Origin: Dickeya fangzhongdai
GTDB lineage: Bacteria > Pseudomonadota > Gammaproteobacteria > Enterobacterales > Enterobacteriaceae
Length of the DNA stretch: 64,000 nucleotides
Reading direction: 5' to 3'
Assembly: GCF_002812485.1 (NCBI RefSeq)
Contig: NZ_CP025003.1
Location: 868,001-932,000 of the forward strand
In this document: piece after piece, positions 36,441-39,702 of the stretch
Position numbering within the stretch: the first letter of the stretch is position 1
Layout of the letters: each line of letters opens with the position of its first letter
The notes under the pieces: model-generated
What the model saw: only the letters and a program-made list of their open reading frames with translations
Databases searched by the model: none
What the model was told of the DNA's origin: nothing
Translations under genes and position numbers: made by a program

Positions 36441-36934
36441 ATGATGTGGAGCTGATAAGAAAGTAATAGTGCAGATTTGGATTTATGGCAGCCCCTAATG
36501 CTGTTTTATTCATTTTTGATGGGTCATACCGTTTTAGCCGAGTGGGCCGCGTTAACGGGCTCGTTTCAGGCGTTGTCCGACTGGGCCGCGCCATATCGCG
36601 CCGAATGCGGTTCCTGCGATTTATCGACCGCCCCGGCTTTGTCAGCGCCCGGTGACCCAGTCCGTCAGTATGTTAGGCGCATGCCCGTTCTGGCGTTAGC
36701 ATCGAAATGACGGCATTCAGCGGGGGATTACTGCATCGGTTTTTCCCGGCGCGGTCTTCATGATGCACGGTAATCAGTAAAATTTTTATTTCATGCCGAT
36801 GCCTTGATGATGAGGACATGACGCCTCTGTAAGGCTCTGCCTGCCGTTCTCTCGACAGAAGCGCCCGGTTGTTGGGCTACGAGAACCTTATTCGGTGATG
36901 TCGGTTTTCCTGCCGCATCACTCATCGCTGCACT

Positions 36935-36979
36935 GGCATTGGTGGCATTGGTGGCATTGGTGGCATTGGTGGTATTGGT
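36935..36979. repeat. 9-bp tandem repeat, five copies
   Basis: GGCATTGGT four times, then GGTATTGGT. It is the only array here with a codon-multiple period, which keeps any reading frame open. Confidence 0.92.
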
Positions 36980-37030
36980 CGGAGGGGGAGGCAATAGCAT
37001 CCCCCTATTTTTTCACCGCCATTCATACCG

Positions 37031-37708
37031 CTATGAATTAAGATCTTCGACAATAAAATCCATCGCGACGTGAAAATAGCCGTTCATCATTTCAGGCACT
37101 AACTCCGCTACCGCACTATCAACGTCCTGACCATAAACTTCCAGCGCCCGATCGGTTAATGTATGGGTATATACGCCATTTTTAACCTCCGTATGTAGAT
37201 CTCTCCGTGTTTGCAGAAAATCATTCGAGAAGTTAAATCTGGATATCGAGAATTTATCCTCTTTTCTGATGATAAAATCGATGGGGTTCATGAGTCGGTC
37301 TTTTTTAAGCGTAATTTTGGGGATGTGGGTGGCAAATTCCAAATGATTGCTCTCCGTCACCTCTGCCCATGTTGCATTACACGTATTATTTACTGAAGGC
37401 GTTTTCCCTTGTGCTTTGAACGCATCAGAAAGACACAGCCCTACTTTAGCGCCAGTCAGCGGCTTCATGGTGTCTTTTTCAAAAAAACGCAAAATGAATT
37501 TTACAGGGATACGGCCTTTCGAGTCTGAAAAACTGCATTGCCCCTTTTTAAAGAGAAATTTATCCAGCCTGCCGATAATTTGCTGCTCGTCGTTAATGAG
37601 TGCGGTATTTATTATGATGGGCTTTTTCGTTAGGGCACTATACGTTCGATGTGTGACGCCATAAAGCCCTAACGCTAACCCGGATATGATGAACATTCTC
37701 CTGTTCAT
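37031..37708 (-). CDS. Exported intradiol-dioxygenase-like protein lacking metal ligands
   Basis: 225 residues. The N-terminus [16 protein letters not shown] resembles a twin-arginine or Sec signal. After residue 60 the pattern [32 protein letters not shown] and [12 protein letters not shown] follows the beta-sandwich of intradiol ring-cleavage dioxygenases (PLxGAxVxxxxxDA..., DxxGxxxFxTxxP). The Tyr/Tyr/His/His iron ligands are not where they should be; the usual HIHF segment reads NPIDFII. It may be a binding protein rather than an enzyme. It is the last gene of a four-gene AT-rich operon; its ATG overlaps the ferredoxin stop by four bases and has GAGGAGG upstream. Confidence 0.7.
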
Positions 37709-37998
37709 GAGGTCAAATCCTCCTCGGCATGAGACATGATAAACATATCAGATTGTGGATAGGTGACGCATGGGAGTATATATTGTCCCCGTTGACTTTC
37801 ATCGAGAAAAGACTGATCAGAGTCATCATATTGTCCAGTTAAACGTCTGCATGCGCATGACGAGCATGCACCGGCCCGGCAACTGTAGGGCAGTTGTATT
37901 CCTTCTTGCTCCGCGGCATCCAGTATATATTGGTCATCGCTGCATTTTATTGTCTTCGTTGTTCCACAGCTCATGATGCTTATATGATAAATCGGCAT
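37705..37998 (-). CDS. Plant/cyanobacterial-type [2Fe-2S] ferredoxin
   Basis: 97 residues. The cluster ligands Cys40, Cys45, Cys48 ([12 protein letters not shown]) and Cys77 (YILPCVTYP) have the exact C-x4-C-x2-C-x28-C spacing of photosynthetic ferredoxins. Surrounding stretches ([28 protein letters not shown]-terminal HAEEDL) also follow chloroplast/cyanobacterial ferredoxin rather than bacterial ISC- or hydroxylase-type ferredoxins. AAGGAGGAG precedes the ATG. It is very tightly joined to the genes on both sides. Whether it carries electrons for a neighbour, or mimics plant ferredoxin, cannot be decided from sequence. Confidence 0.92.
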
Positions 37999-38249
37999 TA
38001 TTTGTTCTCCTCCTTTTGAACGTAAACGGTAAATCCTTTTGGCTTTAAGTCAGGGTGATCAATGGAGATTTCATTTAAAACGTTCATACACAGGGTATAA
38101 AGGAGCTCGCCTGCGATACGTTTGCAGTTGTTATATTCTTCTTCTGGCAGCTGACTTCCCAGATCGGTCAGTTCTTTTTCAATTAAAGTGATGAGTGCCG
38201 ATGATTTATTAATGACTTTCCTGGCGACGTCTTTGTCTGAAATGAACAT
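37998..38249 (-). CDS. Unrecognised 83-residue helical protein
   Basis: Good GGAG eight bases before the ATG; its stop shares one base with the ferredoxin start (TAATG). The product is charged and mostly helical ([38 protein letters not shown]), with no signal or membrane segment. No family is recognised. Its position between an exported Cys-rich protein and the ferredoxin suggests one functional unit. Confidence 0.8.
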
Positions 38250-38284
38250 GGTTATGACTCCATAATTTTATTTTTAAATAGAAA

Positions 38285-38644
38285 TTAAATATCACACATG
38301 GGGATCATTCCCATACACTCAGCCATACAGCTGTGAAAGGAGCCGCCATCAAACGAGCCAGTTGGTAATGTATATAAACATTCTTGTATGCATCGGTCTT
38401 TCTTATCTCCCATGCTTGAATTCAGCGTGCTGCTGGCTGAGTCTGGCATTGTTTTATTTTTTTTAATAGCGCATGACGCGCTGACTCTGGAATAATTTGC
38501 TAATTTTTTTATTGTCTCACGCTCATTTTTGTATGTCAATTTTGCATTTACATCTCCATCGGCGATACTTATGTTTTGATAAAATAAGGTCATGGTTAAT
38601 AGCGTTGAAGTAAATAATATTCTTTTTATAGATAGATTGATCAT
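38285..38644 (-). CDS. Exported small cysteine-rich protein, first gene of the ferredoxin operon
   Basis: 119 residues. A signal peptide (about 1-28, IKRILFTSTLLTMTLFYQNI then SIADG) is followed by a mature part with six cysteines: one in SCAIKK, then CIQEC, CMAEC and a C-terminal CD. The CxxxC pairs could form disulfides or bind metal. AAGGAATAATAG precedes the ATG. No family is recognised. It could be a partner, chaperone or protective protein for the other exported product. Confidence 0.8.
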   Translation of the reverse strand: MINLSIKRILFTSTLLTMTLFYQNISIADGDVNAKLTYKNERETIKKLANYSRVSASCAIKKNKTMPDSASSTLNSSMGDKKDRCIQECLYTLPTGSFDGGSFHSCMAECMGMIPMCDI

Positions 38645-38834
38645 CTATTATTCCTTTAAAGATGCCCTCAGAAGTACAATTTTATTGATTTGTTAAATCA
38701 GAATGATTCTGTGTGATTTCATATGGTTTTTTTAAAATTCGGTCGTTGATATTCCTCCATGAATTTATGGATGCAATGATCATTAATGGTGTATAGGCAA
38801 CTGAATGCACTACGTGGTTTTAATGGCTTTTCTA

Positions 38835-39584
38835 TTACTTCTTCATTAACTCCTGCAGCATTTTTTCAGGATTGTTCAGGAACGAACGCGTGATTTGATA
38901 ATGATCCGTGTCTTTATAATTCACCTGGGAGAGGCTATCGCCATCAAACTGATAGATTAATGCGTCCGGGTAACCCAGCAGAATCGGCGAATGGGTGGCG
39001 ATAATAAATTGGGAATCATCCAGAATCAGGTCATGCATTCTGGCGAGCATCGCCAACTGCCTGGCCGGCGACAGCGCGGCTTCCGGTTCGTCGAGCAGAT
39101 ACAGCCCTTTGCCGCCAAAACGGTTCATCATTAATGAGAGAAAAGATTCGCCGTGCGACTGCTCATGCAAGGAGTGGCCGCCATACGAATTAATCACCGG
39201 CGGGCCGAAAGACGGTTCGGCGTCAAGGTGTTCGATTTCGGAGGCCAGGTTAAAAAAGCTCTCGGCACGAAAAAAAAATCCATTACGGGGACGTGGTACG
39301 CCTTTGGCGATTCTCAGGTAATTCGATAATTCTGAATGCGACGCCCGTGTGCTGAAATTGAAGTTGCGGGTGCCGCCTTCAGGGTTAAACCCCATTGATA
39401 CGGCAATGGCTTCCAGCAGCGTTGACTTTCCGGTGCCGTTCTCGCCAATAAAAAAAGTAACCTTGGGATGGGGGTCAATAAAGTCAAACGAATGAATCGC
39501 TGGAATAGAAAACGGATAAAGGTCAAATGATGGCACCTTATCGCGATTAAGAGAGATACGGCTGATGTATTGAGTCGAAATCAT
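38835..39584 (-). CDS. Stand-alone ABC/SMC-type AAA ATPase
   Basis: A 249-residue single-domain ATPase. Walker A GENGTGKST (residues 47-55), a signature-like SHGESFLSLM, Walker B GLYLLDEPEAALSP and the H-loop IIATHSPILL are intact. It lacks an adjoining permease and any coiled-coil arm, and belongs to the AAA_15/21-like proteins close to OLD nucleases and abortive-infection ATPases. No nuclease partner is adjacent. It is separated from the ferredoxin operon by 190 AT-rich bases. The role is unknown; such proteins occur singly in many enterobacteria. Confidence 0.85.
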   Translation of the reverse strand: MISTQYISRISLNRDKVPSFDLYPFSIPAIHSFDFIDPHPKVTFFIGENGTGKSTLLEAIAVSMGFNPEGGTRNFNFSTRASHSELSNYLRIAKGVPRPRNGFFFRAESFFNLASEIEHLDAEPSFGPPVINSYGGHSLHEQSHGESFLSLMMNRFGGKGLYLLDEPEAALSPARQLAMLARMHDLILDDSQFIIATHSPILLGYPDALIYQFDGDSLSQVNYKDTDHYQITRSFLNNPEKMLQELMKK

Positions 39585-39622
39585 TCTGCGTCATTTCCTG
39601 CCATGGACTGCCCACAACTGTT

Positions 39623-39702
39623 TACCACCATAGCTATTTACCACCATAGCTATTTACCACCATAGCTATTTGCTACTACAGCTATTCACTACCACAGTGG
39701 GT
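39623..39702. repeat. 16-bp tandem repeat, three exact and two decayed copies
   Basis: TACCACCATAGCTATT at 39623, 39639 and 39655 are identical. Changed copies follow at 39671 and 39687. Confidence 0.93.

Follow-up and report, generated by a model that had tools for sequence, protein, structure and literature searches.

Among described systems, the pectocins of soft-rot bacteria come closest to the locus analyzed here. According to the available part of PMC3302902, a pectocin is a single chain in which a ferredoxin is fused to a domain of colicin M or pesticin type, and spinach ferredoxin inhibits pectocin M1. The genes fusA to fusC are known in Dickeya (available part of PMC6071955). Our locus, a four-gene cassette, resembles pectocins M1, M2, and P in that a plant-type [2Fe-2S] ferredoxin occurs in soft-rot bacteria and in that a FusA-like receptor is present in the same genomes. 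However, the cassette ferredoxin is a separate 97-aa protein with a Cys at position 50 and, in the best tree, a clade of its own, and it is encoded beside a Tat-signal protein and a Cys-rich protein. The cassette was rejected as a pectocin by membership because its ferredoxin stands alone, with no fusion to a killing domain. Family HMM searches recognized no toxin family in any of the four cassette proteins.

Two other systems bear comparison. In E. coli PaoABC, a product with a Tat signal carries the signal-less product of a neighboring gene, as we propose for the cassette (available part of PMC4273604). However, the [2Fe-2S] subunit of PaoABC is the one that bears the signal and belongs to a molybdoenzyme complex, whereas for the cassette we infer co-export only. 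The Cys-rich protein shares the CX3C-Xn-CX3C spacing of plant alpha-hairpinins, whose motif is CX3CX4-20CX3C (available part of PMC11591084), and satisfies it with X16-17 in 9/9 aligned frames. Even so, it is bacterial and longer and has extra Cys, homology is not demonstrated, and the likeness may be convergent. Our literature search, covering sources other than subscription papers and preprints, found no description of this four-gene set, which is weak evidence.

The window is the whole 64,000-nucleotide stretch of Dickeya fangzhongdai DNA that was analyzed. By open reading frame (ORF) reading, the cassette lies at 37031-38644 of the window, all on the minus strand, in the order cysR, p83, fdx, tat225. 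Its features and upstream neighbor are as follows.

38835-39584, minus strand: AAA ATPase gene, the upstream neighbor on the same strand (family match)
38645..38834, no strand: AT-rich gap from the AAA ATPase gene to the cassette, a probable (putative) promoter region
38285..38644, minus strand: cysR, 119 aa, Cys-rich, with a Sec-type signal peptide judged by eye
38315..38392, minus strand: CX3C-X16-CX3C stretch of the cysR product, residues 85-110, with its four Cys invariant in 9/9 aligned frames (two truncated)
37998..38249, minus strand: p83, 83 aa, without a signal peptide, open in 9/9 cassettes
37705..37998, minus strand: fdx, 97 aa, a plant/cyanobacterial-type [2Fe-2S] ferredoxin without a signal peptide
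37849..37881, minus strand: ferredoxin residues 40-50, with ligands Cys40, 45, and 48 and the extra Cys50
37768-37770, minus strand: fourth ferredoxin ligand, Cys77 (alignment)
37705..37708, minus strand: 4-base stop/start overlap of the ferredoxin and Tat genes (ORF ends)
37031..37708, minus strand: tat225, 225 aa, with a Tat signal and a predicted intradiol-dioxygenase fold without conserved His
37634..37708, minus strand: N-terminal signal region of the tat225 product, residues 1-25, with Arg3, Arg4, and Phe6 invariant in 16/16 full-length rows

Intergenic distances are +35 nt (cysR/p83), -1 nt (p83/fdx), and -4 nt (fdx/tat225). An earlier note on this DNA had described four tightly joined genes. 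The 1-base and 4-base overlaps agree with that, but cysR and p83 are 35 nt apart, and therefore the wording was slightly too strong. Where it had strong ribosome sites, AGGAGG stretches resembling such sites lie ahead of the ferredoxin and Tat genes, and its AT-rich operon is confirmed (GC of 0.406 in the cassette versus 0.58 in the window). Short tandem repeats flank the region, ggtggcatt-type downstream (window about 36931-36980) and 16-base taccaccatagctatt-type upstream (window about 39620-39690), both found by eye.

A search with tat225 gave 13 proteins at E<=1, and those with an organism name came only from Dickeya and Pectobacterium. The gene is present in 2/9 Dickeya and 6/25 Pectobacterium genomes; sampled genomes, in overlapping draws, gave 2/295 and 3/391 (family) and 2/345 (order), and a scan of genome contigs gave one locus. 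We examined nine loci in eight genomes, every one chosen by its tat225 hit: the window (G000), L003 (Pectobacterium versatile, taken to be G241), L072 (G313), L073 (G300), L074 (G310), L075 (G317), L076 (G316), and both L077 and L078 (G295). By tblastn, all four genes were recognizable at 9/9 of these tat225-picked loci, p83 of L072 with the P. versatile query and its cysR with the window query. The cassette is a real, conserved unit, and the earlier note was right to treat the genes as belonging together.

The loci occupy four sites. One is common to the window and L077; a second, flanked by pectate-lyase-like and pabA-like genes (identified by eye), is common to L003 and L073-L076; and L072 and L078 each have their own. 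The fdx and tat225 genes are adjacent at 9/9 loci, -4 to +30 nt apart, and are the constant core. The order of p83 and cysR in the window, L077, and L072 is swapped relative to the other six loci. L072 is the most divergent cassette (tat225 34% identical). The cassette is apparently horizontally mobile. Phage or plasmid cargo was rejected: no tat225 relative was found in viral contigs, plasmids, or phage records, and plasmids gave no DNA match to the cassette. Ten proteins were compared with PHROGs, and significant matches were confined to the two of ferredoxin type. Cargo varies at the pel-pabA gap; in G301, the gap holds a toxin-antitoxin-like pair of 119 and 107 aa (by eye, at the L103/L104 boundary).

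The cassette genes are under purifying selection. Where calculable (many distant pairs were saturated), dN/dS was 0.13-0.20 for tat225 (8 loci), 0.04-0.53 for fdx (6 loci), 0.04-0.83 for p83 (7 loci, the 0.83 reflecting only a handful of changes), and 0.21-0.47 for cysR (5 Pectobacterium loci). Judging from the alignments, the conserved elements are the Tat motif, the four Fe-S ligands, the ferredoxin Cys50, and the CX3C-CX3C of the Cys-rich protein.

The ferredoxin matches Pfam Fer2 and NCBIfam TIGR02008 (fdx_plant) far over cut-off, with 116.7 bits against a curated TIGR02008 cut-off of 81.15; competing families scored 53.5 (BenC), 35.6 (YfaE), and 15.6 bits (Isc Fdx). The four ligand Cys of the CX4CX2C...C pattern (Cys40, 45, 48, and 77) are present and align with those of photosynthetic ferredoxins, and cluster loading is predicted. 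The best solved relatives are plant-type ferredoxins. We searched about 5.8 billion proteins and considered the best 120 of 7,996 matches. The top seven of these 120 were cassette-type proteins, six of them from Dickeya or Pectobacterium. The other 113 among the best 120 of 7,996 were 51-62% identical to the cassette ferredoxin. Organism names among these listed hits were those of cyanobacteria, algae, and one land plant, and most hits were metagenome proteins; we call all 113 phototroph-type, which we infer for those without an organism name. Cyanobacterial and chloroplast ferredoxins (TIGR02008) share the four ligands at 51-62% identity among the matches listed. An ordinary enterobacterial or hydroxylase-type ferredoxin was ruled out by the family scores and the listed hits, in keeping with the photosynthetic character that the earlier note gave this protein.

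We also built a tree of 70 rows and 96 columns, with 12 cassette rows (two identical), 12 pectocin-type rows, 4 of the 7 tail-cluster proteins, and 42 of the 113 phototroph-type proteins. The cassette ferredoxins formed one clade (98/87) amid the phototroph-type rows, and the best tree placed the pectocin and tail-cluster domains across a 100/98 branch from them. However, a topology joining all soft-rot rows was not rejected (AU p 0.388). Therefore, the tree suggests a separate origin of cassette and pectocin ferredoxins but does not establish it. We name no donor, since similarity to the cassette was the basis for choosing the phototroph-type rows and only one land plant (Vicia faba) is known to be among them.

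Position 50 sets the cassette ferredoxins apart. It is Cys in 12/13 cassette rows, the 13th being a broken copy that ends before that column; Ala in 12/12 pectocin and 4/4 tail-cluster domains; and Gly in 112 of the 113 listed phototroph-type hits. The single listed phototroph-type hit with Cys50 is P0042, an unplaced metagenome protein, which is also the nearest neighbor of the cassette clade (92/82). The cassette would represent a second use of a phototroph-type ferredoxin in soft-rot ferredoxin piracy, beside a Tat-signal partner and not toxin-fused.

The Arg and Phe residues of the Tat signal were read by eye. A first structure model of tat225, from 4 rows, was poor (pLDDT 46) and was superseded by a 16-row model (pLDDT 65), built without P0001, which nearly duplicates the window protein, and without the truncated P0003. 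The final model predicts an intradiol beta-sandwich fold. Its best structural matches are the Tetranychus urticae intradiol ring-cleavage dioxygenases 5vg2/6bdj, at 12-13% identity. The T. urticae enzymes are secreted and act on plant phenolics, and the iron ligands of intradiol dioxygenases are two Tyr and two His. In the tat225 alignment, Tyr columns reach up to 15/16 rows and His columns at most 5/16, and Cys92 is the one invariant Cys, so that no conserved metal-binding set was found. Therefore, tat225 would lack a 2His-2Tyr iron site and, with the His ligands absent, ordinary intradiol catalysis. At E<=1 in Pfam, the intradiol family was matched by 0/15 tat225 members, and PDB sequence searches gave chance-level matches only. 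The "dioxygenase-like" exported protein of the earlier note survives as a predicted fold but gains neither sequence-family support nor conserved His ligands, and an active intradiol dioxygenase was rejected on its chemistry. The family appears to be one of intradiol-fold proteins without an iron site.

The cysR product has its CX3C-X16-17-CX3C and a last Cys in 9/9 aligned frames, two of which are the truncated G295 frames. Among the five Pectobacterium loci, cysR is the fastest-evolving cassette gene, and a PDB sequence search with its product gave chance-level matches only. L072, in G313 only, has a fifth gene for an exported DsbA-like protein with CGKC and V-G-T-P (by eye). The three best PDB matches of this protein are thiol:disulfide interchange proteins (E of 0.035-0.1), and Pfam Thioredoxin_2 matches it below cut-off.

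An exported intradiol-fold protein and a hairpin protein might be directed at the host, the one binding or handling plant phenolics and the other hitting plant cells or proteases. The T. urticae matches and the hairpinin-like Cys spacing (available part of PMC11591084) are consistent with this, as are the confinement of the cassette to two plant-pathogen genera among the genomes searched and its place between pectate-lyase-like and pabA-like genes in five Pectobacterium genomes. However, that gap is variable and holds the toxin-antitoxin-like pair in G301, and therefore the location says little. The missing His ligands count against ordinary intradiol catalysis, and orphan copies of p83 (see below) are left unexplained. 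We consider a host-directed role rather unlikely.

p83 belongs to no family recognizable in Pfam, NCBIfam, or PHROGs, and its PDB matches are at chance level. It is next to effector-candidate genes in 9/9 cassettes, but it is alone in Dickeya genomes G282 and G296, flanked by the AAA gene on one side and an IolD-like gene (identified by eye) on the other. Both orphans are open: the G282 copy has 82 codons and is 70% identical to window p83, and the G296 copy has 83 codons with a TTG start and is 61% identical. Neither genome had a tat225 match or a cassette-ferredoxin match at E<=1e-20, and a local check of the AAA-gene site found no ferredoxin or Cys-rich match; p83 was sought, and cysR judged absent, at that site only. 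Four calculable pairs that include an orphan p83 gave dN/dS of 0.11-0.14 (dS about 1-1.5). Beyond the AAA gene of G282, 49 residues match tat225 weakly (31%, E 1e-4), which we took as chance. Between G296 and G295, the flanks are about 98% identical, the AAA gene 83%, and p83 74%. Therefore, this spot has been exchanged or diversified.

G295 shows degradation of a different kind. Of its two ferredoxin genes, one carries a frameshift and one an in-frame stop. Of its two Cys-rich genes, one lacks a usual start codon ahead of the signal-like stretch, and in the other this stretch is in a different frame. Both loci keep p83 and tat225 open. Assembly error cannot be excluded for these breakages. 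p83 survives where other cassette genes were lost or broken. Bacteria often keep an antidote after the poison is lost, and we read this pattern as putative effector parts lost while self-protection by p83 is retained. The loss of weapon-like genes with p83 kept points to a possible new immunity family. Alternatively, p83 may be linked to the AAA gene in its own right. That gene was matched in 4/9 Dickeya genomes at E<=1e-80, and p83 is within one gene of it at 4/4 places and directly adjoins it in the two orphans. No p83 was found at the pel-pabA spot of G301, a Pectobacterium genome without the cassette. Therefore, orphan retention is not general.

We next considered the FusA link. A Fus-like operon (G000:C1 949,463-957,474) lies some 43 kb away in the same genome and comprises genes for a TonB-like protein, a receptor, an M16 protease, and an ABC-type protein. 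The receptor matches the solved structure 4zgv, labeled "Ferredoxin receptor," at 1210 bits, and the protease reaches 1069 bits against 6b03, which is labeled a putative zinc protease and which we take to be FusC. Of the 34 Dickeya and Pectobacterium genomes, 29 gave a match to a FusA-like receptor (a broken one in G319), and none was found in G302 and G305. Eight genomes (G304, G307, G308, G312, G313, G315, G320, and G321) have only a 44-46% identical receptor, and most other Pectobacterium genomes have one that is 62-69% identical. In the family, 16/295 genomes and 10/154 genera had matches. All 8/8 cassette genomes have the receptor, seven of the close type and G313 only the distant one (46%); intact close receptors occur in 20/34 genomes and 7/8 cassette genomes. 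The chance of 8/8 given 29/34 is about 0.24, and that of at least 7/8 given 20/34 is about 0.07, both calculated by hand and ignoring kinship. Therefore, a FusA link is possible but not supported, and we rejected the argument for FusA dependence from co-occurrence as uninformative to weak.

The same receptor bears on another explanation, in which released ferredoxin would act as a decoy, competing with pectocins for FusA, or be taken back up to shuttle iron, and would thereby protect or feed the producer. Inhibition of pectocin M1 by spinach ferredoxin (available part of PMC3302902) fits this, as do the nearby FusA-like and FusC-like genes and the receptor in every cassette genome. However, at each of the four places in Dickeya with a degraded or reduced gene set (two in G295, and one apiece in G282 and G296), it is the ferredoxin and Cys-rich genes that are lost or broken, and the Cys-rich protein, p83, and its orphans are left unexplained. 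We consider a decoy improbable.

Our preferred reading, held tentatively, is that the cassette is a mobile export system for competition with relatives, like a split pectocin with a Tat-carried ferredoxin. The ferredoxin would gain its [2Fe-2S] cluster in the cytoplasm, bind the intradiol-fold protein, and cross through Tat as its passenger. We assign it this passenger role because the intradiol-fold protein has no conserved metal site that would explain its use of Tat; the proposed interaction draws on gene order. If co-exported, a holo-ferredoxin of 97 aa would make an unusually simple passenger for Tat. The Cys-rich hairpin protein would cross by Sec and be disulfide-bonded outside the cytoplasm, a step beside which we set the DsbA-like gene of L072. 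The least secure steps are that the exported parts would act on neighboring cells, that the ferredoxin might engage FusA as pectocin ferredoxin domains do, and that p83 would protect the producer. ColM immunity protein is periplasmic and anchored in the inner membrane (available part of PMC4661593). p83, unlike it, has no signal, and therefore immunity through p83 would require either that the target be cytosolic or that p83 act before export.

Several results count against competition with relatives. No toxin domain is recognized in any part, the ferredoxin is outside the pectocin clade of the best tree, the FusA association is weak, and p83 could be kept otherwise, for example through the AAA-gene link. 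In G295, the Tat genes are open although the ferredoxin genes next to them are broken, which is at odds with strict interdependence. The split ferredoxin-based bacteriocin-like system raised in the earlier note gains support from the orphan p83 genes, but the separate clade of the best tree, with a joint soft-rot clade not rejected, and a FusA co-occurrence not clearly above expectation tell against it. Its most specific form would be a multi-chain bacteriocin, with holo-ferredoxin on a catalytically dead intradiol Tat carrier, a disulfide hairpin, FusA as the target, and p83 as immunity, the last being a new family that diverges and persists as orphan genes. We regard this form as unlikely.

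A maturation or redox module lies equally close to the data and is just as tentative. Here, the cytoplasmic ferredoxin would give electrons or its cluster to the intradiol-fold protein before Tat export, p83 would be a chaperone, and the Cys-rich protein would be a periplasmic thiol or metal partner, yielding a periplasmic redox or metal-handling complex. The signal-less ferredoxin with all ligands kept, its gene pairing with tat225, the invariant Cys92 and extra Cys50, the DsbA-like gene, and the G295 Tat genes that stay open beside broken ferredoxin genes are all in its favor. However, tat225 lacks a conserved metal-binding set, none of the cassette genes was seen to encode a ferredoxin reductase, and a lone chaperone would not be expected to survive, but p83 does.

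Other ferredoxin-like genes were observed in the loci compared. Seven Pectobacterium genomes (L062-L068) have tail-cluster ferredoxin-like proteins, e.g., L064:1465-1797. In L062, L064, L066, and L068, this is a 110-aa protein with all four ligand Cys replaced, and in L064 its gene is directly behind a phage tail-tube-like gene (by eye). The carotovoricin cluster is already known to contain a ferredoxin (available part of PMC6963963); the ligand loss may be new to the literature. A 289-aa pectocin M-type ferredoxin fusion (L014:907-1776) directly follows prophage-lysis-like genes (by eye) in G114, a genome of another genus. L048, L053, L054, and L058-L061 encode 111-129-aa ferredoxins that are pectocin-domain-like without a toxin domain, and these look like remnants or bare receptor-binding domains. 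By resemblance, we take the annotated PC1 neighbor ferredoxin (available part of PMC3302902) to be of this short type (L058) and not of the cassette type. In G303 and G304, short pectocin-like ferredoxins are about 4 kb from a pectocin-type gene.
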